The position numbers were made by a program, and so were the translations under genes. Positions 1,108 through 28,622 of a stretch of DNA of 44,687 bases are shown one piece after another (position 1 is the stretch's first letter; each line of letters begins with the position of its first letter). The notes under the pieces are model-generated. The model saw only the letters and a program-made list of their open reading frames with translations, was not told where the DNA came from and did not search any database. This DNA comes from a bacterium. GTDB taxonomy: Bacteria > Planctomycetota > J058 > JAJDCP01. Location: NCBI GenBank assembly GCA_030428695.1, contig JAUIEM010000013.1:1-44687 (forward strand), read 5' to 3'.

Positions 1108-1197
1108 CTACCCGCGGTGGTAGGTCTGCTCGCGGACGAGGTCACGGGCGCTGAGGAACTTGCCGTCGCCGGCACGGATCGAGGCGCGGGTACGCAT
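1108..1197 (-). CDS. Short peptide A (29 aa), M[KR]x[KR]T-AG family
   Basis: Begins MRTRASIRAG and ends REQTYHRG; 29 residues, strongly basic. AAGGAGA stands 8 nt before the ATG and a strong hairpin follows the stop, so it looks like a complete transcription unit. The N-terminus matches four other short peptides in this window (at 3076, 28333, 28454 and 28545) at M, the basic residues 2 and 4, and the A-G pair at 9-10. No function is recognised. There is no signal peptide, no membrane segment and no cysteine. The shared start with a variable His/Tyr/Arg-rich tail resembles a leader/core arrangement, but no modifying enzyme is adjacent. Confidence 0.55.
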   Translation of the reverse strand: MRTRASIRAGDGKFLSARDLVREQTYHRG

Positions 1198-1313
1198 GGG
1201 AGGTCTCCTTCGGGGGTTGGGTTCGTGCGGTCACGACGACCGTCAGGAGGAATGTCCGCGGGCGGGGGGTTTCTTACGGGTCGGGGGAAAATCTTGTACG
1301 GGCGGACCAGGAG

Positions 1314-1340
1314 AGCCGGGCCTCGCGCGCGCTCCCGGCT
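1314..1340 (-). terminator. Possible terminator after the secreted repeat protein
   Basis: AGCCGGG and CCCGGCT form a 7-bp stem with a 13-nt GC-rich loop, 34 nt downstream of the stop codon at 1374. A short U-run occurs only further downstream, so the call is weak. Confidence 0.3.
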
Positions 1341-1373
1341 ACGGGACAGCTGCCGGCGCTGCTCCCGGGCTGA

Positions 1374-2822
1374 CTACTCGAGACCGCTGAACTCGATGCG
1401 GTTCGCGCCGAGCGCGATGATTCCGGCGCCCGACCCGGTCGCCGTGACGCGCGCCGCACCCGGCGCGCCACCCGCGATCGCGAGCCGGTCGCCGGCCAGC
1501 CCCTGCGCGCCCCCCTGGAAGACCAGGGTCCGCTCCAGATCGCCGGTGCTGAAGTCGATCTCGAGCGCGTCATCGCCGTCCCCACCGGTTACGATGATCT
1601 GGCCGCTGACCCCGGCCAGGGGCACGGTGAGCGTCGAGGTGCCCGTGCCGGTCACGCCCGCGATCACCGAGACCAGCGTCTTCCCCGTCGCCTCGATCGT
1701 CAGAGCGCCCCCGCTCTGCGAGATCCGGAGCTGATCGTCGGTGCCGGCCAGGTCCTCGATCACGAGATTCGACGAGCCGTCGATCCGCACGTCGATCACG
1801 GTCAGCGCGAACAGGCTCGGATCGGTCTCGCCTGCCCCGTCGCCGGTGCCGTCGCTGTCGGCGTCCGGCTCGATCCCGTCGTCGGACAGGTCGATGCCCA
1901 GCGTGCCGAGGGGTGACGTACCGGTGAACAGCACCTGGTTCCGGTACGCGCCGAAGCCGAAGCCCTGGTCGCTGATCGCGACGACATCGACGACCAGTCG
2001 GATCTGGGCGAGGCCGCCGGAGCCCAGGCTGCTGGGGCCGCCGAGCAGCTCGGGATCGGCGCTGCCGTCGAAGCCGGTGTTGAGAGTGATCGTCCCCGGA
2101 TCGACGATCAGCGCCGGCGCGCTCGCGAGCGTGTAGTTGCCCGCGCCGAACACCGTGTCGAGGTCTTCGGGCAGGCTCAAGCTGGACATCGTGCTGCCGC
2201 CGAAGTTCTCGAGGATGTAGTCGAAGCTGACCTGCGACCCGTTGACCGCGACACTCTTCGCGACGCCGATACGTGCCTCGTCGCCGACCGTGATCCGGGT
2301 CTGGTCGTTCTCGCCGGCCTCCCCCGCATCGCCGTCACCGTCGGGGTCGGGGACGATGCCGTCGTCCGTCGTGTCGAAGACCATCGCGCCGAGAGGACTC
2401 TGCGCGCTGACCGTCATGGCCGCGAGGTAGACCCCAAAGCCGTTCCCCTGGTCTGACACCGTGTTGATATCGACCCGAAACCTGACCTGCGCACGTTCGC
2501 CGGCGGCAAGGGTTCCGCCGACGATGACCCTGGAGAAGACGTTGAAGCCGAAGAACTGCGGGCTCAGCACCAGGCTTCCCGGGCCGCTGATCCGTACCGG
2601 CTGTTGCGGGACCGAGTAGTTGCCGGCGCCGAGCACGGGATTGAGCGGGAGCTCGGCGAACACACCGGACAACGGCACATCGCCCAGATTTTCGACGTAC
2701 AGATCGAAGGTGACCTGGACGCCGTCGACCTGCGCGCGGAGCGCGGCCCCGATCGCGGGATTCTCGACCTGGGCGAGGCTGGTGGAAGCGAGCAGCCCCA
2801 TCGCGAGCAGAGCAGTACGCAT
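1374..2822 (-). CDS. Secreted two-repeat protein with Asp-rich segments
   Basis: 482 residues with an N-terminal signal peptide (MRTALLAMGLLASTSLA). Two homologous units (about residues 20-165 and 170-330) share the order VxFDYxxEN, LGAGNY, SDQGxGFGxY, SPLG and DDGIxPDxDxDG. Each unit ends in an Asp-rich loop resembling calcium-binding thrombospondin-3/dockerin-type motifs (PDPDGDGD, PDADSDGTGD). A third region carries GGDGDDALEID and GDRLAIAGG, a pattern common in planctomycete cell-surface proteins. The repeated units look like beta-sandwiches of the DUF11/conserved-repeat kind, but no family is claimed. GGAGATCG precedes the chosen ATG, and the protein before this start would lack the signal peptide. 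Likely an exported, calcium-dependent surface protein; partner unknown. Confidence 0.8.
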   Translation of the reverse strand: MRTALLAMGLLASTSLAQVENPAIGAALRAQVDGVQVTFDLYVENLGDVPLSGVFAELPLNPVLGAGNYSVPQQPVRISGPGSLVLSPQFFGFNVFSRVIVGGTLAAGERAQVRFRVDINTVSDQGNGFGVYLAAMTVSAQSPLGAMVFDTTDDGIVPDPDGDGDAGEAGENDQTRITVGDEARIGVAKSVAVNGSQVSFDYILENFGGSTMSSLSLPEDLDTVFGAGNYTLASAPALIVDPGTITLNTGFDGSADPELLGGPSSLGSGGLAQIRLVVDVVAISDQGFGFGAYRNQVLFTGTSPLGTLGIDLSDDGIEPDADSDGTGDGAGETDPSLFALTVIDVRIDGSSNLVIEDLAGTDDQLRISQSGGALTIEATGKTLVSVIAGVTGTGTSTLTVPLAGVSGQIIVTGGDGDDALEIDFSTGDLERTLVFQGGAQGLAGDRLAIAGGAPGAARVTATGSGAGIIALGANRIEFSGLE

Positions 2823-3023
2823 CTCGATCTCCGTGAGATTGTGCACGAGCACGGCGAAGTGTTCGGCAGGAAGGAAGGTCACATCCGCCGCTGCTCGCCG
2901 ACGCCAGCCTGGCACCCGTGAAAAAGTACGGAGAGTGTAGCAGCCGCAGGCGCGGAGGCGTACCCCTTCGCGGGTGGTTTCCGCGTCCATTCCGACTGCG
3001 GCCGCGCCCTCTGCATACAACCA

Positions 3024-3050
3024 GCCGGCCGCGGAAGGTCCGCGGCCGGC
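3024..3050 (-). terminator. Strong hairpin downstream of short peptide gene B
   Basis: A perfect 12-bp stem (GCCGGCCGCGGA with TCCGCGGCCGGC) and a 3-nt loop lie 26 nt after the peptide stop codon. On the minus strand it is followed by the moderately T-rich TGGTTGTATG. It also insulates the divergent upstream region of the secreted protein at 1374. Confidence 0.6.
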
Positions 3051-3075
3051 CGGGTCGATCCGAACCCCGAGGGGC

Positions 3076-3135
3076 TCAGTCTTCGCTGCGGTTCCGGTGC
3101 CACCAACCGGCACGGGTCCTGGTCTTGGCCTTCAT
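3076..3135 (-). CDS. Short peptide B (19 aa), M[KR]x[KR]T-AG family
   Basis: Full product MKAKTRTRAGWWHRNRSED. The ribosome-binding site AAAGGAGG, 8 nt before the ATG, is among the best in the window. A 12-bp hairpin follows the stop. The start agrees with the four related peptides (M, Lys2, Lys4, Thr5, Ala9-Gly10), while the tail is unique and has two tryptophans. A sigma-54-like sequence lies about 55 nt upstream. The ORF is very short, so coding status rests on the family resemblance and the signals. Function unknown. Confidence 0.6.
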   Translation of the reverse strand: MKAKTRTRAGWWHRNRSED

Positions 3136-3439
3136 GGTGCGGTCCTCCTTTCGTGCACGGGTGTCGTGCGCTCTTGCTGGAGAGAAGGAAAGCACGCGCT
3201 GTGCCAGTTCATCGACATCGCCGCAAAGGCTTATCCAACAGAGCTTTGTGCCACGTCGGGGGCCTCCCTGCCGTCGCCGGCGCCGCCCCGGACCCACCTC
3301 ACTTCGCGGGCCCGTCCCGCCCTTGTGCAGATCCAGGCCGCGCGCTGTGCAGATCCCCGCGGGGGTGCACGTGCCTGTTCCTTCCGGGTTCTTTGTCAGC
3401 CCCCGAAAATTCTTGCGCTCGCACACTCTACCGGCATAG
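3136..3439. other. Gene-free region between peptide B and the DUF4241-like gene
   Basis: 304 nt. It holds the sigma-54-like site for peptide B, a direct repeat of TGTGCAGATCC (near 3325 and 3348) of unknown meaning, and a possible plus-strand promoter at its right end. No convincing ORF was seen. Confidence 0.5.
3191..3206 (-). promoter_or_regulatory. Sigma-54-like promoter in front of peptide B
   Basis: On the minus strand TGGCACAGCGCGTGCT matches the -24/-12 consensus TGGCACG-N4-TTGCW at all but two positions, including the essential GG and GC with correct spacing. Transcription would start about 45 nt before the peptide ATG. A single match in a GC-rich genome can arise by chance. Confidence 0.4.
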
Positions 3440-3441
3440 AT
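3413..3441 (+). promoter_or_regulatory. Possible promoter of the DUF4241-like gene
   Basis: TTGCGC, 17 nt, then ATAGAT. The -10 overlaps the ATG at 3440. If this promoter is real, translation would start at the in-frame GTG at 3461 rather than at the ATG. Confidence 0.35.
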
Positions 3442-4381
3442 GGAAACCGGGGGCCCCACGGTGCGTATTCTCCTCCTTCTGTTGCTCGCTCTGACCGGCC
3501 TTGGCCAGGAGCTGCCCGACTACGGGCAGTTCCTGTTCGACGCCAGCGAGGTCGACACGCGCTCCGGGAGGATGCGGCTCGAGCGCGTCGAGCTCGGCCA
3601 GCTCGAGCTGCCGACCGGCCGCCTGACCGTCAGCCCCGCCCTGCGCGACTTCCGCGCCGACGCCTTCCAGGCCGCCGTGCCGCCCGGAACCTACCCGGTC
3701 CATGCCCTGCTCGGGCACATGCGCGGTACCCGGGTGACGATGCTCGCGATCGAGGTCCGGTCGGGACGGCCGGTCCGCTGGGTCGAGCTCGACGCCGGGC
3801 AGGAGCACGGGGGCTTCGACCTCGGCGGCTACACCGACCTGCCGACCGGGGTCGTCGCCCTGGTCGACGGGCGCAGCGCTCTGCGCTACAGCGCCCGGCT
3901 CGGCGAGCGCGGCTTCACCAGCGCCCTGTTCGACGAGCTCGAGAGCCGCGACGCCGCGGGCTGGTCCTTCGCCGAGGTCACCCTCGCCGACGACCAGAAC
4001 GCGCTGGTGATCTCGACCGGCCTCGGCTCGGCCGGATGCGTCAGCCGGCTCGGCTACGACTCCGCCGGCAACGTCTGCTGGCTGGTCTGCGACATGCTCG
4101 TGATCCCCGCCCTGCGCGAGGCCCAGGCGCGCATCTGGGAAGAGCGGATGATGCAGCGCCACCACGAGCAGGTCGGCAGCCGCGAGGCGACCACCCTCGA
4201 CAACACCCTGCGCTGGATCATCGGGCTGACCGTGCTGTTCGGGCTCGGCTTCATCGTCTTCCGCATGAAGACCAACCCGAGCGGCTTCCTGTGCGACCGC
4301 TGCAAGTACAACAGCCCGCGCTACTGCACCCGGCCCGAGCGGCCGAACGCGAAGCGCTGCCCCGACTTCGGGGCGAAGTAG
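3440..4381 (+). CDS. Membrane-anchored DUF4241-like protein with C-terminal zinc-binding tail
   Basis: 313 residues. A hydrophobic N-terminus (ILLLLLLALTGLGQ) reads as a signal peptide. The middle (about residues 75-215) matches the DUF4241 pattern: PPGTYPVHA, then VRWVELD, then TGLGSAGCVSRLGYDSAG and a VCDM block. A membrane helix (about 255-277) follows, and the last 35 residues have CDRCKYN, YC and RC spacing like a small zinc ribbon, which would lie in the cytoplasm. The start is uncertain: ATG 3440 has no ribosome-binding site and overlaps a possible -10, while GTG 3461 sits right before the signal peptide. The GST gene begins 6 nt after the stop and is probably co-transcribed. DUF4241 has no established function. 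Confidence 0.75.
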   Translation: METGGPTVRILLLLLLALTGLGQELPDYGQFLFDASEVDTRSGRMRLERVELGQLELPTGRLTVSPALRDFRADAFQAAVPPGTYPVHALLGHMRGTRVTMLAIEVRSGRPVRWVELDAGQEHGGFDLGGYTDLPTGVVALVDGRSALRYSARLGERGFTSALFDELESRDAAGWSFAEVTLADDQNALVISTGLGSAGCVSRLGYDSAGNVCWLVCDMLVIPALREAQARIWEERMMQRHHEQVGSREATTLDNTLRWIIGLTVLFGLGFIVFRMKTNPSGFLCDRCKYNSPRYCTRPERPNAKRCPDFGAK

Positions 4382-4386
4382 GGGCC

Positions 4387-5088
4387 GTGGAGGTCGTGCT
4401 CTACCAGTATCCGCCCGCCGGCCGCCTCGCCTCGATCTCGCCCTTCTGCGTCAAGGTGCAGCGGGCGCTGCACTACAAGGGCGTCCCCTTCCGCGTGGTC
4501 AACACCACGCGGGCCACCCGCTACAATCCGCGCGGCCGGCTGCCGGCGGCGGACATCGGCGGCGAACGCCTGCTAGACTCGAGCGAGATCCTGCTCGCGC
4601 TCGAGCGCGCCTTCCCCGCTCATCCGCTGCTGCCGGAAGAGCCGCGCCGGCGCGCCGAGACGCGGATGTTCGAGGACTGGGCCGACGAGGTGCTCTACCC
4701 TTACCTGCTGTGCTGGCGCTGGTTCGTCGAGCCGCCCGATCCGGCGCGCGCCTTCCGCTTCCTGCCGTGGGGGCTGCGCCGGCTCGGCCTGGCACTGTAC
4801 AAGCGGAAGGTCGGGGCGCGCCTGAAGGCCGTCGGGGTCGGACGCAAACCGGTCGCGGTCGTCCGGGAAGAGCTCGCCGCCCTGCTCGCGACGCTCGAGG
4901 CGCGTCTGGACGGGGCGCCCTTCCTCTTCGGGGAGCGGCCGAACCTCGCCGACATCGCGCTCTTCGCGCAGGTCGACGGGCTGTACTGGAAGCCGCTGCC
5001 GCAGGCCCGGGCGCTGATCGAGGCGCATCCCCGGCTGCTCGCCTGGTATCAGGCGGTCGAGGCCGCCTCCTCAGGGGATGCCGGGTAG
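4387..5088 (+). CDS. Glutathione S-transferase family protein
   Basis: 233 residues from a GTG start 6 nt after the preceding stop. The N-terminal thioredoxin-like half has SPFCVKV (residues 18-24) at the active-site loop, then LPAADIGG (cis-Pro region) and DSSEILLALE, the glutathione-binding block with Ser-Ser/Glu. The alpha-helical C-terminal half contains the N-capping box NLADIALFAQV typical of GSTs. Such proteins conjugate or isomerise electrophiles with glutathione, but the substrate cannot be read. The last 18 nt overlap the convergent acetyltransferase gene. Confidence 0.88.
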   Translation: MEVVLYQYPPAGRLASISPFCVKVQRALHYKGVPFRVVNTTRATRYNPRGRLPAADIGGERLLDSSEILLALERAFPAHPLLPEEPRRRAETRMFEDWADEVLYPYLLCWRWFVEPPDPARAFRFLPWGLRRLGLALYKRKVGARLKAVGVGRKPVAVVREELAALLATLEARLDGAPFLFGERPNLADIALFAQVDGLYWKPLPQARALIEAHPRLLAWYQAVEAASSGDAG

Positions 5089-5589
5089 CGGCGGCAGGCC
5101 GGCGTCGGCCGGTTCCCAACGCAACACCAGGGACAGGCGGTCCGGCCACTCCTGATCCTCGGGCTGCAGCACCCGGCCGCACTCGACGAAGCCGAGCCCG
5201 GCGTAGAAGCGCCGCGTCTCCGCGTAGGGCTCGTAGTCGACGCTGTCGCCGAGGGTGTCGACCCGCAGCGCGAAGTGTCCGCGGCGGTTGGCCTCCTCGA
5301 CGCAGGCGAGCACGAGGTGCCGGCCGATGCCGTGGCGGAACAGGTCCGGCCGCACCCCCAGCCAGGTCAGCTCGAGGGCGGGCGTCGTGGCGTGGGGCTC
5401 GAACAGGGCGAAGCCGGCCGGGGCGCCGTCGGCGAGGGCGAGGAAGCCTCGGGGCCGGGCGAGGGCGGCGGCGACCTGGGCGCGGGCCCGGGCGGTGAAC
5501 CACTCCGGCAAGGCCGCGACCAGGCCGTCGACCGCTCCCGCGTCGCGGGCGAGAAGGCGGCGCACGCGGAGCTCGTCGATCTCCGCCAT
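5071..5589 (-). CDS. GNAT family N-acetyltransferase
   Basis: 172 residues. The acetyl-CoA pyrophosphate-binding loop is RHGIGR (residues 85-90) within LGVRPDLFRHGIGRHLV, and motif B is AETRRFYAGLGF. Together with the FALFEPH strand before motif A, these define a GNAT fold that transfers acetyl from acetyl-CoA to an amine. The substrate is not predictable. The ATG directly follows the TGA of the upstream gene (TGAATG), so translation is probably coupled to the 160-aa protein at 5590. It converges with and overlaps the GST gene. Confidence 0.88.
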   Translation of the reverse strand: MAEIDELRVRRLLARDAGAVDGLVAALPEWFTARARAQVAAALARPRGFLALADGAPAGFALFEPHATTPALELTWLGVRPDLFRHGIGRHLVLACVEEANRRGHFALRVDTLGDSVDYEPYAETRRFYAGLGFVECGRVLQPEDQEWPDRLSLVLRWEPADAGLPPLPGIP

Positions 5590-6072
5590 TCAGGAGAGCT
5601 CGCCGTCGACTTCCGTCACCGCCCCGGGCAGGCCCGACAGCGCCTCGAACAGCGTGTCCTGCAGCTCGGGCGTCGCCTGCGCCGGGCTGCCGGCGGGGGC
5701 GCTGAGCACGTACTGGGTGCGGCACTTCTGCAAGCGCTTGGCGAGGCGCGGCTCGAGCCCGTCGCAGAGCTGCTCGAGCAGCTCCTCGAGCTCGTCGCCG
5801 GTCGTACACGAGAGCTCGCAGATGCCGAGGTCCTCGAACAGGCTGTCCAGGCTGCCGTCCTCGACCGCGCGGGAGACCGTGCGGACGTCGGTCGCGCCGG
5901 ACTCCCAGCCGACCACGTCGAGGCCCTCCTCGGTCTCGTCGGTCGGCACCGAGCCGGACTCGCGCAGGGACTCGTAGGTGAGGATGGTCCACCCGTGCCC
6001 GGTCATCAGGCTCTTGAGCCGGGCGACCGACAGAGGATCCCTCGGCAAGAAGATCGAGAAGTCGACGCTCAT
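5590..6072 (-). CDS. Unknown protein, tandem paralogue 2 (160 aa)
   Basis: 160 residues, not recognised. It aligns without gaps to the 160-aa protein at 6151, about half of the positions being identical by eye. Shared blocks are the N-terminal MSVxxSxxLP, SLMxxxGWxIL, GWExGATD, the CxLxC pair near residue 91, PRLAKRL, GSPAQATPxLQD and the identical end DGELS. It is acidic and soluble with no signal peptide. An earlier in-frame GTG exists at 6087, but AGGAGG-like GGAGGAAACG sits before ATG 6072, and the paralogue starts at the same residue. The downstream acetyltransferase gene is contiguous. Confidence 0.75.
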   Translation of the reverse strand: MSVDFSIFLPRDPLSVARLKSLMTGHGWTILTYESLRESGSVPTDETEEGLDVVGWESGATDVRTVSRAVEDGSLDSLFEDLGICELSCTTGDELEELLEQLCDGLEPRLAKRLQKCRTQYVLSAPAGSPAQATPELQDTLFEALSGLPGAVTEVDGELS

Positions 6073-6102
6073 CGTTTCCTCCGACACGGCGATCGGAGGC
6101 CT

Positions 6103-6131
6103 AGCCTAGCGCTCGCCAGCGGCCCTGTCCA
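6103..6131 (-). promoter_or_regulatory. Possible promoter between the two paralogues
   Basis: Minus-strand TGGACA, 17 nt, TAGGCT, about 30 nt upstream of ATG 6072. It would allow the second paralogue and the acetyltransferase to be expressed separately. A direct repeat GCTAGGCTAGGC overlaps the -10. Confidence 0.35.
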
Positions 6132-6150
6132 CTGCCCGCCGCCCCCGGCG

Positions 6151-6633
6151 TCAGGAGAGCTCGCCGTCGATCTCCTTGAGCGCTCCGGACTGCCGCGAAA
6201 GCGCCTCGCACAGCGCGTCCTGCAGGTCCGGGGTCGCCTGCGCCGGACTGCCGATCGGCGCGTCGACGGTGTACATGCAGCGGGCCTTCGCGAGGCGCTT
6301 GGCGAGGCGCGGCGCGAGGTCCTCCATCGACAGCTCGATCAGCATCGCCAGCCCCTCCCCGGCCGTACAGCCGAGCGCGCACACGCCGATCGCGTCGTAC
6401 AGCCCGTCGAGGTTCCCCGCCGCGACCGCGGCCGCGACGGTCTCCGCGTCGGTGGCGCCCTTCTCCCAGCCGATGATGTCGACGCCCTCGGCCGTCGTCT
6501 CGGCGCGCTGCGCGTCGGTGCCGGACAAGGAGCGGTAGGCGAGGATGCTCCAGCCGCGGTTGCCCATCAGGCTCCGCAACCGTTGCACAGACATCGCCTC
6601 CGAGGGCAGATAGACCGAATAGCTGACGCTCAT
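6151..6633 (-). CDS. Unknown protein, tandem paralogue 1 (160 aa)
   Basis: 160 residues, paralogue of the protein at 5590, with the same length and conserved blocks (MSV start, GWEKGATD, CxLGC, PRLAKRLAK, GSPAQATPDLQD, DGELS end). The perfectly conserved GSPAQATP and PRLAKRL stretches argue for a constrained surface rather than drift. AGGAGG stands 6 nt before the ATG. It lies 85 nt downstream of murD2 on the same strand and may be the end of that operon. No family is recognised; the size and paired arrangement would fit an immunity or adaptor protein, but nothing in the sequence proves it. Confidence 0.75.
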   Translation of the reverse strand: MSVSYSVYLPSEAMSVQRLRSLMGNRGWSILAYRSLSGTDAQRAETTAEGVDIIGWEKGATDAETVAAAVAAGNLDGLYDAIGVCALGCTAGEGLAMLIELSMEDLAPRLAKRLAKARCMYTVDAPIGSPAQATPDLQDALCEALSRQSGALKEIDGELS

Positions 6634-6718
6634 GATTCCTCCTGGGTACCGGATGCGTGGGGTTTGCAGACCCTACGGCGCGACACGTCTCCGGGTTTTG
6701 GAGTTCCAGGAGGAAATC

Positions 6719-10297: not shown

Positions 10298-10546
10298 CGG
10301 TTTCCTGCTCCGTGGTCTCCCCCCGGTTTATCGGCACGTTTTGGGGGCGGGCTGTACCGGCGGGTGGGGAATCCGCATCGGGGGCGGGGCGGACGGATCG
10401 AGGTCGAGAATCGAGAGGGAGGTTGTGATGCGGGGTTGTTGGATGCGAGGAAGCGGCGGACGGCGGGAGCGGGTTTGCGGGTTCTTGCAAGCAAGAAGAA
10501 GAAGGGAACCGCCAAGACGTCAAGGCGCCGAGAAGAGGAAGAAGAA
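10298..10546. other. Gene-free upstream region of the murL operon
   Basis: Left part of a 546-nt gap between divergent genes. It contains G-rich runs and, near 10490-10546, a purine-rich stretch with GCCAAGACGTCAAGGCGCC-like sequence and GAA/AAG triplets, far more A-rich than its surroundings. No convincing gene or promoter was found. Confidence 0.4.
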
Positions 10547-11377: not shown

Positions 11378-11378
11378 C

Positions 11379-14272: not shown

Positions 14273-14295
14273 GCCCGGCTCGCTCCCGAGGTCGA

Positions 14296-19554: not shown

Positions 19555-19567
19555 AAGGGCTGGTCTT

Positions 19568-19873
19568 CTAGGAGCCTTCGTTCCGGCCCTTCCCAGCCCG
19601 CCGCAGCAGCCACTCTTCGAGGGGCCACGCGAGCAGCGTGCCGCCGATCATGCCCCAGGCGAGCCAGCGGGTGCCGAGCGTCGCGACCGCGACAAGCATG
19701 TGCCAGAAGGGATTGCCGTGGAACAGCCCGAGCACCGCCTCGAGCGAGCGGGCGTGATCGGCGTAGGCGACCAGGCCGAGGTACACCGCCCAGACCACGG
19801 CCAGCCGCACGAGCCAGCCCAGCCGCCGTCGCCGCGGGGAGGGCGGGAGCTTGGCCTTCGCGTCGGCGCTCAT
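19568..19873 (-). CDS. Small membrane protein
   Basis: 101 residues with a basic N-terminus (SPRRRRLGW), then two or three hydrophobic helices (about 20-38, 55-72 and 70-88). It is last in a three-gene operon, its ATG overlapping the stop of the upstream gene (ATGA). No family is recognised. It is probably a membrane partner of the preceding membrane-anchored protein. Confidence 0.7.
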   Translation of the reverse strand: MSADAKAKLPPSPRRRRLGWLVRLAVVWAVYLGLVAYADHARSLEAVLGLFHGNPFWHMLVAVATLGTRWLAWGMIGGTLLAWPLEEWLLRRAGKGRNEGS

Positions 19874-21051: not shown

Positions 21052-21054
21052 CGC

Positions 21055-21903: not shown

Positions 21904-21940
21904 GGTCTCCTCGTTCCGCGGCAGGCGGCGCCGCGAGTCT

Positions 21941-21969
21941 ATCTTAGGGACTGGGGAGGACCAGGTCGA
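21941..21969 (-). promoter_or_regulatory. Possible promoter of the acyltransferase operon
   Basis: Minus-strand TCGACC, 17 nt, TAAGAT, about 40 nt before the ATG. The -10 is good and the -35 weak. Confidence 0.35.
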
Positions 21970-22144
21970 GGGCGCTGGCTCGAGCGCGCCGGGCCGGAGG
22001 GCTACCTGCCCGCGCTCGCCCGCGGCCGGGCGCTGATCGGGGAGGCGTGGGACAACCGCGGCAAGGGCCCGGCCCGGACGGTCGGGAACGGCGAAGCCGG
22101 AGCTCGACAGGCTGCTCGCCGTGCACCCGGAGCTCGCGGACTGA
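21955..22144 (+). pseudogene. Possible remnant of a C-terminal coding fragment
   Basis: Two plus-strand frames join into a plausible protein end: LERAGPEGYLPALARGRAL and GEAWDNRGKG in one frame, then KPELDRLLAVHPELAD with a stop at 22142-22144 in the next. A single-base shift near 22095 would restore continuity. There is no start or ribosome-binding site, so this is at most a decayed gene end. Confidence 0.25.
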
Positions 22145-22165
22145 GCGGGCGAGACCGCGGGCGGG

Positions 22166-23038
22166 CTACCAGTCCTGGCCGCGATGGACCGAGTTCCCCT
22201 CGAAGAGGTCGGCGCGGCTGGTCTCGATGCTCGCCTCGAAGGCTTCCTTGTCGAGGCGGTCGCTCTGCGCGAAGAAGTCGACCGGGTTGTGCCACACGAT
22301 CTTCTCGACCTCGGCCTCGGTGAAGCCGCGCTTGCGCATGTGCATCGCGGTCTTCGGGACCTTGAGCGGGTCGGAGCGGCCCCAGTCGCAGGCCGAGTTG
22401 ATGATCTTGCGCTCGAGGCCCCACTGCTTGAGGATGCGGACCATGCGATCCTCGTCCATCTTGGTGTCCGGGTAGATCGAGAAGCCCATCGCGCAGCCGG
22501 TCTCCTGCACCAGCGGCACCGTCTCCTCGGTGTTGTGGTCGACGAGCACCTTCTCCGGCGCGATGCCGACGTCCCGGATCACATCGAGCGTCCGCTTCGT
22601 CCCGCCGACCTTGTCGCGGTGCGGGGTGTGGATCAGCACCGGCAGGTCGTGCTGCATCGCGAGCTCGAGCTGGGCGATGAAGAAGCGCTCTTCGGCCTTG
22701 GTCTGGTCGTCGAAGCCGATCTCGCCGACGCCGAGCACGCCGTCCTTCTCGAGGTAGGTCGGCAGGATCTCGAGGACCGCCTCGTTGACCCGCGGGTCGT
22801 TGGCTTCCTTCGGGTTGAGCGCCATCGTGCAGAAGTGGCGGATGCCGAACTGGCTCGCGCGGAAGGCCTCCCAGCCGATCAGGGTGTCGAAGTAGTCGAT
22901 GAAGGTCGCGACGTGCGTGCGCGGCTGGCCGAGCCAGAAGGCCGGCTCGAGGATCGCGACGATGCCGGCCATCGCCATCGCCTCGTAGTCGTCGGTGACG
23001 CGCGAGAACATGTGGGCGTGGGGCTCGAAGATGCGCAA
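22166..23038 (-). CDS. eboB: EboB-like TatD-family metal-dependent hydrolase
   Basis: 290 residues. A TIM-barrel amidohydrolase with metal ligands EPHAHMF (His7, His9), GVGEIGFDD, LIHTPHRDK, VDHNTEET and a C-terminal HNPVDFF. It is similar to TatD but belongs to the branch found beside eboA in Ebo clusters, which help transport or process lipid-linked precursors in bacteria and algae. It starts at TTG 23038, with GAAGGAGA 7 nt upstream, 3 nt after the eboA stop. Substrate unknown. No UbiA-type prenyltransferase (eboC), eboE or eboF follows, so the cluster is incomplete here. Confidence 0.8.
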   Translation of the reverse strand: MRIFEPHAHMFSRVTDDYEAMAMAGIVAILEPAFWLGQPRTHVATFIDYFDTLIGWEAFRASQFGIRHFCTMALNPKEANDPRVNEAVLEILPTYLEKDGVLGVGEIGFDDQTKAEERFFIAQLELAMQHDLPVLIHTPHRDKVGGTKRTLDVIRDVGIAPEKVLVDHNTEETVPLVQETGCAMGFSIYPDTKMDEDRMVRILKQWGLERKIINSACDWGRSDPLKVPKTAMHMRKRGFTEAEVEKIVWHNPVDFFAQSDRLDKEAFEASIETSRADLFEGNSVHRGQDW

Positions 23039-23041
23039 GGC

Positions 23042-23899
23042 TCAGTCTCCTTCGGGCAGCGCCTGCGCGAGCAGCTCGCGCACGCGGGGATGGGTCTCTT
23101 CCTTTCTACGGGCCTCGAGCAGGCCGCGGGCTTCGGTCGCGAGCGGCCCGTCGGCGAGGATGCGCAGCGCGCGGGCGACGTGGAAGCGGTGGCCGGGGAA
23201 CGGATCGGAAGCGTGCGCCTCGAGGTAGCCCCAGGTGCTGTCCAGGGGGTGGTGGGCGATCACGTCCCAGACGTCGAAGGGCACCGAGCGGCCCGCGGCG
23301 GTGCGCTCACTGACGTACGAGGTCAGCATGCGCGAGAGCTCGGGCGAGGCGCGCTCGGCGAGACGCAGGATGCGGTGCAGACGGACGCCCATGAACGCGG
23401 CCTTCAGCACCGACTGGTTGTACAGAAGCGGGGAGATGCGCTCGGCGGTGTACGGGTTCTCGCACAGCACCGCCTCGAACAGCGAGACGGTGTTGGTGCG
23501 CAGGGCGTCCTCGACCGCGGCCAGCGCCGCGTCGTCGTCCCCGGACAGGAGGGCCAGGCAACGCAGGCTGCCGATGCGCTCGCGCAGCTCGCCGTGGTGG
23601 TAGAGCGCGGCGGCGCGCGCGCGGCCCTCGGCCCCGCAGGCGAGCAGGAGCAGCGCCCGCCCGGCGTCGTCGCGGCACCACGGGGCCAGGGGCAGCGGCC
23701 CGTGGGGGGTAGGCAGGCTCGGGGCCTCGTCGCGGTAGAGCGGGGCGCGGCCGAGCTTGCGGCTGGCGGCGGGGAAGCGACGCGCGATCGCGCCGGGGTC
23801 GGCGGCGACGGCCTCGAGGGCGGCGTCCAGCCACGCGCGCCCGCTGTCGCCAGCGGCGACGAGGGCGGCCTCGAGGGTGGTCACGGGATCGCCAGTCAC
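23042..23899 (-). CDS. eboA: EboA-like protein
   Basis: 285 residues. Blocks recalled from the EboA family: WCRDDAGRALLLLACG, ALRTNTVSLFEAVLCENPYT, YNQSVLKAAFMGVRLHRI and MLTSYVSERTAAGRSVPFDVWDV. EboA is a helical cytoplasmic protein without known catalytic residues. Directly followed by eboB, which supports the call. The start is GTG 23899 with AGGAGG 6 nt upstream. A TTGCAA-N16-TACCAT promoter lies 65 nt further up. Function probably concerns localisation or export of a metabolite, by analogy with scytonemin producers. Confidence 0.8.
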   Translation of the reverse strand: MTGDPVTTLEAALVAAGDSGRAWLDAALEAVAADPGAIARRFPAASRKLGRAPLYRDEAPSLPTPHGPLPLAPWCRDDAGRALLLLACGAEGRARAAALYHHGELRERIGSLRCLALLSGDDDAALAAVEDALRTNTVSLFEAVLCENPYTAERISPLLYNQSVLKAAFMGVRLHRILRLAERASPELSRMLTSYVSERTAAGRSVPFDVWDVIAHHPLDSTWGYLEAHASDPFPGHRFHVARALRILADGPLATEARGLLEARRKEETHPRVRELLAQALPEGD

Positions 23900-23963
23900 T
23901 GGTCACCTCCTCACCGACGCACGTCGCGGAAAGCTCCGCGCGCTGCGCCGGAACGGCGCGGCC

Positions 23964-23991
23964 ATGGTATCCAAATCACTCCCCCTTGCAA
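23964..23991 (-). promoter_or_regulatory. Promoter of eboAB
   Basis: Minus-strand TTGCAA, 16 nt, TACCAT, in an A/T-richer stretch of the eboA-tpiA divergent region. It shares TTGCAA and GGGGGAG with the promoter at 14245-14272. Confidence 0.5.
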
Positions 23992-24017
23992 GCACCGGGC
24001 CACGAGCCGGATTTCCA

Positions 24018-24045
24018 TTGACCTCGCGAGCGGCAACGCTACAAT
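24018..24045 (+). promoter_or_regulatory. Promoter of the tpiA operon
   Basis: TTGACC, 16 nt, TACAAT; transcription would begin near 24052, about 18 nt before the ATG, just enough for the GGAGG ribosome-binding site. Confidence 0.75.
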
Positions 24046-24069
24046 GTGCTACCCGAATCGGAGGCAGGA

Positions 24070-24810
24070 ATGGCCGGGTGCCCGCTCATCGCAGCGAATT
24101 GGAAGATGAACACCGACGCCGGATCCGCACGCGATCTGGCCGCTTCTGTGTTGGAGGGGCTCGCGTCCACTCCCGTCGAGCGTGACGTCCTCTTCTTTCC
24201 CCCCTCCTTGTTCCTCGAAGCGGTCGTCAACGCGGTCAGCAGCTCGAGCGCGACCCGGGTCGGCGTCGGCGCGCAGGATCTGCACCACGAGGCGCGGGGC
24301 GCCTTTACCGGCGCGATCTCCGCTCCCCAGATCGCGAGCACCGGCGCCGGCTGGGCCCTCGTCGGCCACTCCGAGCGCCGCCACGTGTTCGGCGACGGCG
24401 ACGAGACCGTCGGCCTGAAGCTGCAGGCCGCCCTGCGCGCGGGCCTGACGCCGGTGCTGTGTGTCGGCGAGACCCTCGAGCAGCGCGAGGCGGGCCAGAG
24501 CTCCGCCGTCGTCGCCGCGCAGCTCCGCGCCGCCCTCGCCGGGGTCGCCGCGGGCACCGAGCTGGTCGTCGCCTACGAGCCGGTCTGGGCGATCGGCACC
24601 GGCAAGACCGCCAGCCCCGCCCTCGCCCAGGAGATGCACGCCGCCCTTCGCGCCGAGCTGCCCGACCCCGGCTGGCGCGTGCTCTACGGAGGCAGCGTCA
24701 AACCAGCCAACGCGGCCGAGCTGCTCGCCCAGGACGACATCGACGGCGTCCTCGTCGGCGGAGCCAGCCTCGAGGCCGACAGCTTTCTCTCGATCATCCG
24801 CGCAGCGTGA
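24070..24810 (+). CDS. tpiA: Triosephosphate isomerase
   Basis: Interconverts dihydroxyacetone phosphate and glyceraldehyde 3-phosphate in glycolysis and gluconeogenesis. 246 residues, the usual length. Substrate-binding Asn10 and Lys12 (ANWKMN), electrophilic His100 (GHSERR), catalytic Glu170 (AYEPVWAIGTG, with the flexible loop) and the phosphate-binding LYGGSV are all present. GGAGG lies 5 nt before the ATG. First gene of a housekeeping operon; tpiA-secG order is common in bacteria. Confidence 0.98.
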   Translation: MAGCPLIAANWKMNTDAGSARDLAASVLEGLASTPVERDVLFFPPSLFLEAVVNAVSSSSATRVGVGAQDLHHEARGAFTGAISAPQIASTGAGWALVGHSERRHVFGDGDETVGLKLQAALRAGLTPVLCVGETLEQREAGQSSAVVAAQLRAALAGVAAGTELVVAYEPVWAIGTGKTASPALAQEMHAALRAELPDPGWRVLYGGSVKPANAAELLAQDDIDGVLVGGASLEADSFLSIIRAA

Positions 24811-24837
24811 AGTTGCCCTGAGGAGTCAGCCGACACC

Positions 24838-25230
24838 ATGGAACTCTTGATACTCGCATCGGCGAAGAGCGTGCTGACGACGCTGCTGTCGATCGTCTAT
24901 TTCTTCGTCTGTTTGATCTTGATCATGATCGTGCTGATGCAGCGCGGCAGTGAAGGCGGCGGCCTCGGCGGCGCCTTCGGCGGCGGCGGTGCCGAGTCGG
25001 CCTTCGGGGTCAAGGCCAACCTCGCCTTCAAGAAGACCACCGCGATCGTCTCGGTCGTCTTCGTCACGCTCAGCCTCGGCCTGGCCTGGCTGCAGCGGCC
25101 CGACGCCGCGCCGACCGAGCCCGGGGTGGAGAACACCGATCCCAACGGCGTGCTGACGCCGGGGGCCGGCGACCCCGAAGGTACGGGCGAAGGCGGCATG
25201 CCGGCGGAAAACCCCGCCGGGACCGAGTAG
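24838..25230 (+). CDS. secG: Preprotein translocase subunit SecG
   Basis: Auxiliary subunit of the SecYEG channel in the inner membrane. 130 residues with two membrane helices (about 12-35 and 67-84) and the conserved linker LMQRGSEGGGLGGAFGGGG between them. The C-terminus is longer than usual and Pro/Gly/Glu-rich. It starts 27 nt after tpiA, with GAGGAG upstream. Paired with tpiA as in many genomes. Confidence 0.95.
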   Translation: MELLILASAKSVLTTLLSIVYFFVCLILIMIVLMQRGSEGGGLGGAFGGGGAESAFGVKANLAFKKTTAIVSVVFVTLSLGLAWLQRPDAAPTEPGVENTDPNGVLTPGAGDPEGTGEGGMPAENPAGTE

Positions 25231-25245
25231 AAAGAGAGGGAAGGG

Positions 25246-25262
25246 CCCGGACGCGCTCCGGG
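25246..25262 (+). other. Hairpin between secG and pyrE
   Basis: CCCGGA and TCCGGG with a 5-nt loop, 16 nt after secG. A second imperfect stem (GGTCTCGC with GCGGGACC) follows. This could attenuate read-through into pyrE, but there is no U-run. Confidence 0.3.
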
Positions 25263-25323
25263 ACGGTCTCGCGCAGGCGGGACCACCAACCGCAACCCAG
25301 CAGATAGATCTGAGAGAGGTACC

Positions 25324-25914
25324 GTGGAAGAGCTGGACTACGAAGAGCTCCTCGAAGAATGCGGCGCGCTCAGCAACGGTCACTTCCGGCTCTCTTCGGG
25401 CCGGCACTCGGACCGCTACCTCCAGTGCCAGAAGGCGTTCCAGTTTCCTTCCCGGGCCGAGAAGCTCGGGGCGGGCGTCGCGAACCTCTTCGACGACGAA
25501 GAGATCGACGTCGTGATCGGCCCCGCGATGGGGGCGGTCAGCCTGGCGATGGAGACGGGCCGCGCGATCTCGCGGAAGAACAAAGAGCTGCGCGTCTTCT
25601 TCGCCGAGCGCGACGGCGGCCGCTTCACCCTGCGCAGGGGCATGGATCTCTGGGAGGGCGCCCGGGTCCTGATCGTCGAGGACGTGATCACGACCGGCGG
25701 CTCGGTCTTCGAGGTGCTGTACCTGGTCGAGACCGCGAAGGCGATCCCGGTCGGCATCGGCTGCGTGGTGCTGCGCGGTCGCGCGAACTTCGGGGCCACC
25801 CCGACCCGCTCGCTGCTGCAGCTCGACCTGCCCACCTACAGCGCCGACAACTGCCCGATGTGCAAAGACGGCATCCAGCTGGTCCGTGTCGGCCAGAAGA
25901 GGCCGATGCGTTGA
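25324..25914 (+). CDS. pyrE: Orotate phosphoribosyltransferase
   Basis: Joins orotate and PRPP to orotidine 5'-phosphate in pyrimidine synthesis. 196 residues. The PRPP-binding motif is VLIVEDVITTGGS, preceded by the FRLSSGRHSDRYLQ block and the flexible loop with ERDGGRFTLRRG. It starts at GTG with GAGAGG upstream. The C-terminal CPMCKDG with two Cys is typical of one PyrE branch. The stop overlaps the TTG start of yicC. Confidence 0.95.
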   Translation: MEELDYEELLEECGALSNGHFRLSSGRHSDRYLQCQKAFQFPSRAEKLGAGVANLFDDEEIDVVIGPAMGAVSLAMETGRAISRKNKELRVFFAERDGGRFTLRRGMDLWEGARVLIVEDVITTGGSVFEVLYLVETAKAIPVGIGCVVLRGRANFGATPTRSLLQLDLPTYSADNCPMCKDGIQLVRVGQKRPMR

Positions 25915-26786
25915 TCTCGAGTATGACGGGTTTCGGCGAGGCGTCGGGGCATCTCGGCGACTCCGCCGTGCTCGCCTTCGAGGTCCAGTCCGTCAACCAC
26001 CGTCATCTCAAGCTGCGCATGCGCCTGCCGGACGAGCTGGCCGCCTTCGAGGCGCCGGCCGAGGCGGTGCTGCGGCACCGCGTCCCGCGCGGCAGCCTGA
26101 CCGTGTCCTGTCGCCTGCGCGGGAGCGGCGCCCCCCGCCTCGCCCTCGACCACGAGCAGCTCGCCGGCTACGTCGCGGCCCTCCGCGCCGTGCAGCGCGA
26201 GCACGAGCTCGAGGGCGGGCTCAGCCTCGCGACCCTCGCCGGCCTGCCCGGCGTGCTGAGCTTCGCGGCGGCGAGCTACGACGGCCAGCTCGAGCCCTTC
26301 CTCGCCCTCCTCGGCCGCGCCCTCGACCAGCTCGAGGCCTCGCGCCGGGTCGAGGGGGCCGCCCTGCAGGAGGCCCTCCACGCCCAGCTCGCCGGTATCG
26401 AGGGCGAGCTCGAGAGCCTGTTCGCCATCCTCCCCGAGACCGTCAAAGGCTACAGGCTGCGGCTGCGCAAGCGGGTCGACGAGCTGCTCAGCGACACCCA
26501 GGTCGGCCTCGACGACGGCTCGCTCGAGCGCGAGGTCGCGCTGATGGCCGAGAAGGCCTCGCTGCAGGAAGAGACCGACCGGCTGCGGGCCCACGTCCTC
26601 GAGATGCGCAAGCAGCTCGACAGCGACGGGCCGGTCGGCCGCCGGCTCGAGTTCCTCGCCCAGGAGATGCTGCGCGAGGCGAACACGATGGCCGCCAAGA
26701 GCGTCGACGCCCGGGCCGTCCACACCGTGCTCGCGATCAAGCTGCGGGTCGACTCGATCCGCGAGCAGGTCAGCAATGTCCAGTAG
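25911..26786 (+). CDS. yicC: YicC/YloC family endoribonuclease
   Basis: 291 residues. The N-terminal SSMTGFGEASG and SVNHRHLKLRMRLP match the YicC N-domain, and the C-terminal ETDRLRAHVLEMRKQLDSDGPVGRRLEFLAQEMLREANTMAAKS is the DUF1732 signature. Family members cleave RNA. TTG 25911 gives the normal LISSMTGFG start and overlaps the pyrE stop (TTGA); ATG 25923 is an alternative. It overlaps gmk by 11 nt, a frequent neighbour. Confidence 0.93.
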   Translation: MISSMTGFGEASGHLGDSAVLAFEVQSVNHRHLKLRMRLPDELAAFEAPAEAVLRHRVPRGSLTVSCRLRGSGAPRLALDHEQLAGYVAALRAVQREHELEGGLSLATLAGLPGVLSFAAASYDGQLEPFLALLGRALDQLEASRRVEGAALQEALHAQLAGIEGELESLFAILPETVKGYRLRLRKRVDELLSDTQVGLDDGSLEREVALMAEKASLQEETDRLRAHVLEMRKQLDSDGPVGRRLEFLAQEMLREANTMAAKSVDARAVHTVLAIKLRVDSIREQVSNVQ

Positions 26787-27366
26787 CGGGCTCCTGGTCG
26801 TCCTCTCGGGGCCCTCCGGCGTCGGCAAGTCGACGGTCGCCCGCCGGCTCCTCGAGCGCCCGGGCTACCGGCGCTCGATCAGCGTGACCACCCGCGCCCC
26901 CCGCGCCGGCGAGGTCCCCGGGCGCGACTACGAGTTCACCGACACCGCGACCTTCCGGGCCTGGCGCGCGGAGGGACGCTTCCTCGAGTCGGCCGAGGTC
27001 CACGGCAACCTCTACGGGACCCGCATCGCGCCGGTCAAAGAGGCGATCGAGCGGGGCGAGGTGATCCTGCTCGTGATCGACGTCCAGGGGGGCGCGGCGG
27101 TGCGGGAGGCGACGACGCTGCCCACGCTCCTGTTGTTCGTCGCGCCGCCGAGCTTCGCGGTCCTCGAGAAGCGGCTGCGCAAGCGCGCGACCGAGAACGA
27201 GAAGGCGCTGACCCTGCGCCTCCTGAACGCGCGCCGCGAGCTCGCCGCCGGCGAGAGCTACGACCACACCGTCGTCAACGACGAGCTCGACGCGACCGTC
27301 GCCGCGCTCGCGCGCCTGATCGAGGACGCCCGCCATGGCAGACATCCTGCTCGGAGTCACCGGTAG
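26776..27366 (+). CDS. gmk: Guanylate kinase
   Basis: Phosphorylates GMP to GDP with ATP. 196 residues with P-loop [12 protein letters not shown]-binding [19 protein letters not shown] and LLVIDVQGG. The ATG lies inside the end of yicC, and its own end overlaps the CoaC-dUTPase gene by 32 nt. The tight packing marks this as one operon. Confidence 0.97.
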
Positions 27367-28348
27367 CATAGCGGCCTACAAGGCCTGTGAGCTCGCCTCG
27401 GCCCTGCGCAAGCAGGGGCACACCCTGACCGCCATCCTGACCTCCGCCGGCAAGCGCCTGGTGTCGAGCTACGCCCTGCGCACGCTGACCGGCAACCCGG
27501 TGGTCGACGACATCTTCCCCAGCCTCGCCCCGGAGAGCTGCCCGCACATCGCGGCGACCGACCGGGCCGACCTGCTGGTCGTCGCGCCCGCGACGGCGAA
27601 CTTCCTCGCCAAGGCCGCCCATGGCATCGCCGACGACGCCCTGAGCACCACCCTGCTCTCGGTGCGCTGTCCGGTCCTGGTCGCCCCGGCGATGAACCAC
27701 CGGATGTGGTTCCACCCCGCCGTCCAGGACAACCTCCTGCGGCTGCGCGAGCGCGGCCTCGGCATCGTCGAGCCCGAGGCTGGCCTGCTCGCCTGCGGCT
27801 GGGAGGGCAAGGGCCGGCTCGCCCCCGTGCCGACCATCCTCGCCCGCATCGACGCCGCTCTGGCCGGCGAGCGCGCGCCGCGCGGCCTGCCGGTCAGGGT
27901 CGTCTGCGACGGGCCCCTGCCCGCCTACCACAGCGCGGACGCCGCCGGCCTGGACCTGTGCGCACGGGAAGCCGTCGCGCTCGAGCCGGGCGCGAGCGCC
28001 AAGGTGCCGACCGGGCTGCGCGTCGAGCTCCCGCCCGGCTACGAGGCGCAGGTGCGCCCGCGCAGCGGGCTCGCGGCACGCCACGGGCTGACCGTGCTCA
28101 ACGCCCCCGGCACGATCGACGCCGACTACCGGGGCGAGATCGCGGTGCTGCTGATCAACCTCGGGGAAGCGGCCTACGCGATCGAGGCCGGAGAGCGTAT
28201 CGCCCAGCTGGTCGTCGCGCGCCACGCGCGCGTCGCCTGGGAGCCCGTCTCCGCGCTCGGGGAGAGCGCGCGGGGGGAAGGGGGCTTCGGGTCGACGGAC
28301 GCGGCGGACGCGGAGGTGCCCGCCGCGGGCGATCACGTCGAGTCGTAG
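27335..28348 (+). CDS. coaC-dut: Fusion of phosphopantothenoylcysteine decarboxylase (CoaC) and dUTPase (Dut)
   Basis: 337 residues in one uninterrupted frame. Residues 1-175 are a flavodoxin-like CoaC domain with FMN-binding TGSIAAYKA, catalytic His71 (CPHIAATD), PAMNHRMW (118-125) and active-site Cys154 ([10 protein letters not shown]). Residues 185-337 form a complete trimeric dUTPase: AGLDL (204-208), RSGLA (243-247), [11 protein letters not shown] (259-269), RIAQLV (288-293) and the phosphate-binding [10 protein letters not shown] (313-322). In most bacteria CoaC is fused to CoaB, and dut is a separate neighbour. Here CoaB is missing and Dut takes its place, so CoaB must be encoded elsewhere. 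The stop overlaps the convergent peptide C gene by 16 nt. Confidence 0.93.
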
Positions 28349-28413
28349 CGGACGTGCCGGCCTTCGTACGATGGGAAGTGCGGTCCGGCCTGGATCCTGG
28401 TGCGGGTCTTCAT
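28333..28413 (-). CDS. Short peptide C (26 aa), M[KR]x[KR]T-AG family
   Basis: Begins [18 protein letters not shown] and ends RHVRYDST. Nearly identical to peptide D, 40 nt upstream. GAGGAGA precedes the ATG. His/Tyr/Arg-rich tail, no Cys. The 3' end overlaps the end of the CoaC-dUTPase gene on the opposite strand. Last gene of the E-D-C unit. Function unknown. Confidence 0.6.
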
Positions 28414-28550
28414 GGCTGTCTCCTCAGCGATTGTCGTGGTGGAGTCGGGGCGCTCACATAGAGCTGTAGCGGATGTGCCGGCCTTCGTACGATCGGTAGT
28501 GCGGTCCGGCCTGGATCCTGGTGCGGGTCTTCATGGCTGTCTCCTCAGCG
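28345..28550 (-). repeat. Tandem duplication, 121-bp period
   Basis: Segments 28345-28429 and 28466-28550 match at 82 of 85 positions. Each spans most of a peptide gene plus its ribosome-binding site. All three differences change an amino acid (V/I, F/Y, P/R). Confidence 0.85.
28454..28534 (-). CDS. Short peptide D (26 aa), M[KR]x[KR]T-AG family
   Basis: Begins [18 protein letters not shown] and ends RHIRYSSM. The duplicated partner of peptide C, with the same ribosome-binding site (GAGGAGA), which overlaps the stop of peptide E, so E and D may be translated together. The conserved start and diverging tail fit a family with a fixed N-terminus and a variable C-terminal core. Function unknown. 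Confidence 0.62.
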   Translation of the reverse strand: MKTRTRIQAGPHYRSYEGRHIRYSSM

Positions 28551-28622
28551 CGTGGTGCTGTAGTGGTGGTCACGTTTGACGACGTGGTGCATGCCTGCCT
28601 GGAGCGCGGTGCGGGTTCTCAT
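28545..28622 (-). CDS. Short peptide E (25 aa), M[KR]x[KR]T-AG family
   Basis: Begins MRTRTALQAGMHHV and ends KRDHHYSTTR. First gene of the E-D-C unit; its stop lies 10 nt before the ATG of D. GGAAGAGA upstream is a weaker ribosome-binding site. Five histidines in 25 residues could bind metal. Function unknown. Confidence 0.55.
   Translation of the reverse strand: MRTRTALQAGMHHVVKRDHHYSTTR

Follow-up and report, generated by a model that had tools for sequence, protein, structure and literature searches.

Very short peptide genes with a shared start and diverging tails in a planctomycete contig, and their relatives in other genomes

Five minus-strand genes encoding very short peptides, here designated A to E, lie at three loci within a 44,687-base stretch of DNA, contig JAUIEM010000013.1, from a member of the Planctomycetota (hereafter the window, i.e., the whole of the stretch analysed, which is chromosome-like and of 72% guanine plus cytosine, or GC). 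These peptides share a ten-residue start that is followed by unlike tails, and that they represent a real family is nearly certain. They are interpreted here, with a probability of roughly 0.5, as leader-plus-variable-tail micropeptides, that is, as peptides whose leader is read in trans and whose tail is the working part, with the genes probably being co-expressed. A first-pass annotation of the same DNA had proposed that the genes make up a single overlooked family in which starts are fixed while ends diverge, and relatives in other genomes, a codon test in one of those genomes (G720), and a leader profile all support that proposal. Genomes and loci are referred to using our own handles, beginning with G and L, respectively.

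The five peptides of the window

Translation bears out the description of A to E as tiny open reading frames (ORFs) on the minus strand, each beginning with ATG, of 19-29 amino acids (aa), and displaying the pattern M[KR]x[KR][TA]xxxAG (Table 1). The ribosome-binding sites (RBSs) likewise are as had been described, that is, strong in A to D, where AGGAG(G) is found 6-8 nucleotides (nt) ahead of the start, and weaker in E, which has GGAAGAG only. A strict scan for M[KR].[KR][TA]...AG over both strands, allowing for ATG, GTG, or TTG starts and for ORFs of up to 80 aa, returned exactly A to E, versus a single match over 40 order-3 Markov simulations of the window (ATG starts only; 0.025 matches per window). 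The window contains in total 11 ATG ORFs possessing AGGAG at 4-10 nt upstream, with five of these shorter than 60 aa, and four of those five are A to D.

C and D are carried by a tandem direct repeat, with C a recent duplicate of D, and E shares with that repeat 39 nt at 74%. Given this duplication, along with the partial likeness of E, the three loci hold approximately four independent members. The differences between C and D consist of one synonymous and six nonsynonymous changes, with all of the residue changes found within the tail. No Pfam or NCBIfam family was matched by A, C, D, or E up to an E-value of 10; B, of 19 aa, is below the 20-residue minimum of that search and was not included. 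A tblastn search of plasmids using peptide D gave zero matches at E-values of up to 10, and the same search using peptide A gave three Cereibacter records (E-value 1), rejected as being found inside collagen-like proteins.

Table 1. Positions of the peptide genes and of other features in the window.
Feature	Positions	Strand	Description
Peptide A	1108-1197	-	29 aa, MRTRASIRAG + tail DGKFLSARDLVREQTYHRG; AGGAG at 1205-1209
Peptide B	3076-3135	-	19 aa, MKAKTRTRAG + tail WWHRNRSED; AGGAGG at 3144-3149
Peptide C	28333-28413	-	26 aa, ten-residue leader + tail; RBS at 28420-28424
Peptide D	28454-28534	-	26 aa, ten-residue leader + tail PHYRSYEGRHIRYSSM; AGGAG at 28541-28545
Peptide E	28545-28622	-	25 aa, MRTRTALQAG + tail MHHVVKRDHHYSTTR; weak RBS GGAAGAG at 28630-28636
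Tandem direct repeat carrying C and D	28327-28429 + 28448-28550 (28327-28550)	.	103 nt, 92% identical, spacing 121 nt
Hairpin 3' of A	1062-1093	-	14-nt arms, 93% complementary, 4-nt loop; precedes AMP-binding (acyl-CoA ligase-like) gene
Hairpin 3' of B	3021-3053	-	15-nt arms, 93% complementary, 3-nt loop
GTAAGA, candidate shared promoter element	1272-1277	-	80 nt upstream of A
TAAG, candidate shared promoter element	3230-3233	-	98 nt upstream of B
GTAAGA, candidate shared promoter element	28688-28693	-	71 nt upstream of E
Triosephosphate isomerase, SecG, YicC, guanylate kinase, Dfp-dUTPase fusion, three Ser/Thr kinases			Encoded in window; Pfam scan

Relatives and selection upon the leader

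Relatives were sought in 392 genomes drawn from the Planctomycetota-like phylum of one PSD1-domain-rich genome, with the reversed pattern serving as control, as it did also in the other genome pattern searches. The pattern was found at 15 places in eight of these genomes versus one match to the reversed control. Ten places in three genomes were accepted as relatives (seven in G720, two in G452, and one in G523). Not accepted were matches in G594, G640, G593, and G530, which are long ORFs or for which the motif ORF was not found, and also a single, doubtful match in G729.

It is G720 that possesses the largest set, with the leader present at ten loci and with peptides of 11-38 aa along with one of 64 aa. 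The richest of these loci (L115 17404-15963) packs 18 units into a row of about 1.4 kb; many of the units have their own Shine-Dalgarno sequence, several overlap the preceding stop codon, and some lack an RBS. A GGGAGAT simple-sequence run is found at L115:17400-17700, upstream of this array. L118 carries a row of six members and another of at least two, and L117, L120, L121, and L158 carry two or three members each.

The 18-unit array allows selection to be assessed separately for leader and tail. Over all pairs of units, the proportions of synonymous (pS) and nonsynonymous (pN) differences are 0.54 and 0.18 for leader codons 4-11, i.e., a pN/pS of 0.33, versus 0.47 and 0.47 for tail codons 12-19, i.e., a pN/pS of 1.02. 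In the +1 and +2 frames of the array (codons 2-11) pN exceeds pS. As the pN/pS signal is frame-specific, the units are translated, with the leader constrained and the tail free. In G720, that is, there is translation-type selection upon the leader and none upon the tail.

Tails are 9-19 residues in length in the window and 1-54 residues in G720, and the one leader stands before tails that are quite unlike. Those of the G720 array are hydrophobic or end in MPTM or TPYM, those of L118 are GFTIDAW-like (both L115 and L118 count as hydrophobic), and the tails of the G452 members are Cys-rich at L123 and Flp-pilin-like at L124. The first-pass description of a His/Tyr/Trp/Arg-rich tail consequently holds for the window but not for the relatives, the tails of which are hydrophobic, Cys-rich, Flp-pilin-like, or repetitive.

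An independent profile of the leader

A profile of leader positions 2-10 was trained on 17 G720 array units and on zero window sequences. (Array unit 16, the start codon of which is not in register, is outside of this 17-sequence profile though inside the 18-unit codon test.) It was run over every window start codon followed by ten open codons (n = 1,936), with 12,842 starts from 256 kb of random other G720 contigs as background. E, D, C, and A take ranks 1, 2, 3, and 4 in the window with scores of 13.9, 11.0, 11.0, and 9.1, and none of the 12,842 random starts scores as high as any of the first three, the top random start reaching 9.6. A, C, D, and E are members of the family by this independent profile. 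If ‘KAG-leader micropeptides’ are defined from G720 as possessing this leader, an RBS of their own, and a length of under 40 aa, then A, C, D, and E have the leader by profile, and the window peptides have the length as well as the RBS, that of E being weak.

The same profile, run on 107,561 starts of loci other than those of G720 and the window, gave 15 distinct starts scoring at least 10 (copies of one place having been merged). Six of these were accepted (one in L123, one in L124, and four in G523), two are doubtful (L086 and L127), and seven were rejected, with the highest-scoring rejected start, a false positive, reaching 12.4.

Members in G452 and G523

The accepted G452 members are MNARTNLKAG-KFCNECGYYPCTCN and MSTKTNVKAG-PTAVEYAVMLALIIVVC. 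At L124:9289-8992 (G452:C233) there are three tandem ORFs of 27-29 aa, with Flp-pilin-like tail starts and slightly varying leaders.

In G523 the accepted place instead begins a repeat protein of 148 aa. Ten proteins of this genome carry the recurring motif (V/I)R(T/S)xVxAGGxxxNHAA, each having 6-12 NH units. The genes for these ten NHAA polyproteins are found within about 35 kb (L160, L125, and L161; G523:C100, about 51.8-86.8 kb), and many share a similar, CCGGATTTCCCCGACAC-like upstream stretch. Leader scores are 10.6-13.3 in four of the ten, with the other six starts scoring below 6, and, given the false positives of the profile, score alone is no proof of G523 membership. Homology of the G523 proteins with the short peptides is suggested by leader score together with a shared KTTVKAG, and should be viewed as less certain than the rest. 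The polyprotein genes sit among 11 Ser/Thr-kinase matches, mostly on the opposite strand, and at six of the ten genes an extracytoplasmic-function (ECF) sigma factor match lies, on the other strand, within about 200 nt upstream. According to PMC8103513, certain ECF factors have Ser/Thr kinases as part of their regulation.

Searches of other collections

The strict pattern plus a Shine-Dalgarno sequence was found in none of 386 genomes classed as relatives of a Hydrogenedentota genome, with the reversed control giving three matches. Across 34 genomes from a mix of phyla, the three matches to a looser pattern were counted as background; the reversed control matched once. Among viral contigs, a pattern search gave eight stretches, of which L087 and L088 were rejected as the starts of 110- and 112-aa ORFs, with the others misfits; three further patterns gave zero matches to viral contigs. 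L086:358-492, a 45-aa ORF starting MKAKTGLKAG on a 188-kb contig of a viral collection, has a leader score of 11.0 and is kept as doubtful; its protein, upon searching, matched only itself.

Use of a 123-aa G523 polyprotein as query gave five plasmid and 12 phage records, all of which were rejected, with two regions examined: a Bacillus plasmid match is antisense to an annotated gene and a Tistrella match is inside a very large ORF. The other records have E-values of 3 or worse, a second Bacillus record excepted. The 148-aa polyprotein matched no protein at E-values of up to 1 among 1,082 candidates of a large database. Short KTNVKAG...NHN proteins may be present in databases from other phyla, and this limits how novel the family can be said to be. 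A literature search using motif strings matched no paper, and for short peptides of planctomycetes there was nothing relevant among the papers listed.

Hairpins and upstream elements

Hairpins following A and B, which had been described as perfect, are real but instead are near-perfect over their full arms (Table 1). C to E have only a 10-nt overlapping palindrome and no hairpin of this kind. A terminator scan scored neither the A nor the B hairpin as a terminator (TTGTAT trails the B hairpin, and the tool demands five T in eight), and found no intrinsic terminators around C to E. The sigma-54-like site that had been claimed for B (3191-3206, one mismatch) is rejected as a promoter, being not better than chance: such one-mismatch sites are expected 0.59 times per shuffled window and observed twice, with two or more seen in 11 of 100 shuffles.

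TAAG occurs at eight sites in the window, counting both strands, and three of the eight sit 70-98 nt upstream of A, B, and E, the chance of this being 0.010 per locus. The longer GTAAGA has just two sites in the whole window, on either strand, one before A and one before E. In G720, CTMAAMC-N16-19-AWKGW is found upstream of five of the ten loci (other contigs of G720, 431 kb in total, have one match; 0.0017 expected). These upstream motifs suggest a joint switching-on of dispersed members. A search for an 8-mer shared across 15 upstream regions had as its best count 10, for a GC-rich word, versus 6-9 in shuffles, and was not used.

Neighbouring genes and candidate enzymes

The annotated neighbours of the G720 peptide genes, none of which recur, include guaB, an amidohydrolase, a heparinase-like gene, SurE, and acetyl-CoA synthetase, among others. 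Ser/Thr kinases were considered as G720 partners, their density near the peptides being about twofold that of random contigs (seven in about 134 kb of peptide loci versus seven in 256 kb of random contigs), but this is unconvincing. Unconvincing also are SQHop-like proteins found near E in the window and near the G720 array, which are 34% identical over 87 residues (E-value 0.003).

A putative graspetide cluster is present at L123:4074-5556 (G452:C20), consisting of the family member (L123 4074-4148), a 63-aa candidate precursor whose end is acidic and rich in Thr and Ser, and an ATP-grasp ligase that is close to the ligases of microviridins. That ligase matches the TIGR04187 (E-value 2e-62), MvdC, and MvdD models, all below curated cut-offs, and also the AMdnB structure 7m4s. 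Its use as tblastn query gave no match to the window. The two other G452 ligase loci scanned, out of three such others, have candidate precursors of 62-68 aa that are without the family leader. An ATP-grasp enzyme as general partner was rejected, as two of the three carrier genomes have no TIGR04187 match at E-values of up to 1e-15. No enzyme of the type modifying RiPPs (ribosomally synthesized and post-translationally modified peptides) is found among the Pfam-scanned ORFs of the window. The peptides nevertheless possess the architecture of RiPP precursors, i.e., leader and variable core in one peptide, the likeness being one of architecture only.

Weighing the interpretations

Under the leader-plus-variable-tail reading, the leader comprises the ten N-terminal residues, mostly M-x-x-[KR]-[TS]-x-[VIL]-[KRQ]-A-G at a fixed spacing from the start Met, and would serve as an address label, to be read by a shared machine (protease, exporter, or modifying enzyme) whose gene is elsewhere in the genome. 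This machine would act at or after Gly10. The tail would be the working part, free to change and diversified by tandem duplication, with the G720 arrays and the C/D pair showing how tails multiply, and the genes would probably be co-activated from a shared promoter. The address-tag reading is preferred because the decapeptide is kept by selection at a constant distance from Met while the tail diversifies. We infer that recognition takes place in trans, that cleavage occurs at AG, and that the genes are co-regulated, as we do any activity on the part of the tail.

A number of results weigh against this reading. Annotated neighbours include no enzyme or transporter that is common to the peptide loci, and comparison of ORFs between the window and those loci gave only kinases and two weak matches, with again no common enzyme or transporter. 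The first-pass idea of leader plus core or signal remains a hypothesis, if the best-fitting one, and of the co-occurring modifying enzyme or transporter that it suggested looking for, none common to the loci was found among annotated neighbours, the ATP-grasp ligase of G452 not being general. TIGR04187 indeed has no match in G720 or G523 at E-values of up to 1e-15, with eight of 80 genomes matched. By profile, two of the 12,842 random starts score as high as A, and B is a poor fit, ranking eighth of 1,936 with a score of 2.1, as high as which are 21 random starts; B, while weakest by profile, nonetheless has a strong RBS and the strict motif. Between C and D, pN (0.10) is greater than pS (0.06), and leader codons 2-10 of the window peptides have a pS of 0.33 and a pN of 0.37, like that of shifted frames, with four independent members being too few for this comparison. 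The CTMAAMC-N16-19-AWKGW motif is absent from the other five G720 loci and from the window, and as both it and TAAG were derived from the same loci, their significance is post hoc. The distribution of the family, lastly, is sporadic, as accepted members are scarce both in G720's class and in that of the closest relatives of a Dfp-dUTPase fusion protein which is encoded in the window. In the former, 22 of 23 genomes are without accepted members, a single match in G704 being treated as background and the reversed control also matching once; in the latter, 75 genomes gave one background-like match (G835), with the reversed control also giving one.

The main rival is that the peptides act whole and unprocessed, as cationic intracellular peptides that bind RNA, ribosomes, or membranes or that function in stress, with the basic N-terminus working and tails modulating. 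This is possible, though on the whole unlikely. The first ten residues are charged (net 0 to +4 across the family and +2 to +4 for window members), purifying selection in the G720 array falls upon codons 4-11, and no processing enzyme is found among annotated neighbours, all of which would suit a peptide that works from its basic end. Such a peptide should, however, display constraint also where changes in fact concentrate, which in the G720 array and between C and D is the tail, and tails are unlike between loci. Improbable is a role as short prepilin-like peptides, with the basic, Gly-ending leader cut by a peptidase of the TadV/PilD type. Flp prepilins have Glu at +5 and Tyr at +6 after the leader Gly, and the tails of the L124 trio (PTAVEYAV...) have Glu and Tyr at five and six residues past Gly10. 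Glu at +5 nonetheless is absent from all five window tails, as is a hydrophobic segment, and most tails of the 35 other listed members lack a long hydrophobic stretch. The prepilin leader, that is, fits the G452 trio only.

That the peptides are instead regulatory upstream ORFs (uORFs), i.e., attenuator or arrest peptides for the next gene, with the hairpins following A and B as attenuators, is quite improbable. A same-strand gene does follow A and some G720 members: A is directly before the AMP-binding, acyl-CoA ligase-like gene with its hairpin between the two, one G720 member is about 43 nt before a guaB-like ORF, and an amidohydrolase ORF follows another on the same strand. A uORF role nevertheless is unlikely because at several loci, namely those of C to E, of the L117 members, and of the first L118 row, the neighbouring gene is convergent and not a regulated gene on the same strand, and because rows of six and of 18 peptides are senseless as uORFs. 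Downstream genes furthermore are unrelated, and conservation is N-terminal with tails free. Highly improbable, lastly, is chance, or a non-coding repeated element that is read as ORFs. C and D are indeed a recent DNA duplication, the pattern searches of the 392 genomes also return unrelated ORFs, and profile false positives reach 12.4 among the 107,561 starts. A and B, though, are outside the C/D repeat yet share its residue pattern, and this explanation is mostly refuted by the simulations, by the frame-specific selection of the G720 codon test, and by the ranks in the window of a profile that was trained on another genome.

Comparison with known systems

The known kind behind the address-tag comparison is one of ‘many precursors, one leader’. 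Lanthipeptides of the prochlorosin type have a conserved leader, which in prochlorosins and SyncA is long, together with cores that vary widely, and many of their precursor genes are unlinked to the enzyme. Those leaders are Nif11-like, with the enzyme known, whereas here the leader is ten residues in length, the peptides are mostly 15-38 aa, and a partner enzyme is only proposed. Many prochlorosin or SyncA precursors are served by one promiscuous enzyme, ProcM or SyncM (PMC10783134 and PMC9872173). Graspetides (MvdC/MvdD/TIGR04187) are similar in that the L123 member heads a row containing a candidate precursor and an ATP-grasp ligase, but differ in that G720 and G523 have no TIGR04187 match at the above threshold. 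Type IVb (Flp/Tad) prepilins have in common with the family a short, basic leader ending in Gly, along with Flp N-termini which the L124 tails resemble, but differ from the five window tails as already described. Leaders of the C39 double-glycine type, which are much longer than ten residues, also have a leader-type start that ends in a Gly motif, with AGG present in most of the G523 polyprotein units, but in window members AG leads into P, D, W, or M and there is no GG, and no C39 domain is found among the window ORFs scanned. For such C39-cut leaders see PMC6363468.

More speculatively, M-x-x-[KR]-[TS]-x-[VIL]-[KR]-A-G may be a new, minimal, modular tag upon which one machine would act in trans, whether the tag is present on single peptides, on rows of up to 18, or on polyproteins with 6-12 tags, and with whole sets of the genes fired together by alternative sigma factors, as the ECF-sigma matches beside six of the ten G523 polyprotein genes may indicate. 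Such a tag system, if real, would give the Planctomycetota a means of peptide output that differs from the known RiPP, pilin, and double-glycine systems. Peptides of 15-30 residues are under the length limit of standard gene finders, so a family such as this stays invisible. If one machine reads the leader, then it should be findable by co-occurrence, and the whole would represent a compact natural tag-and-cargo system and add a new class to the peptide products of planctomycetes. Peptides that act whole would still form a small-protein family that is both new and multi-copy, and its regulon could be tested.

Other features of the window

A 482-aa ORF at 1377-2822, between A and B, has no Pfam match. 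Three large Ser/Thr kinases are encoded at 36319-44564, one possessing an FHA domain and one TPR repeats. At 27335-28348, a Flavoprotein (Dfp-type) domain is joined to a dUTPase, without a CoaB domain (PF04127), and two named relatives of this fusion protein are Planctomycetes. A contig that encodes P0002, 78% identical, represents a close relative of the window's organism. Similar Dfp-dUTPase fusions are found in nine of the 392 genomes sampled, and eight of these loci, which were read, are of 36-43% GC versus the 72% of the window.

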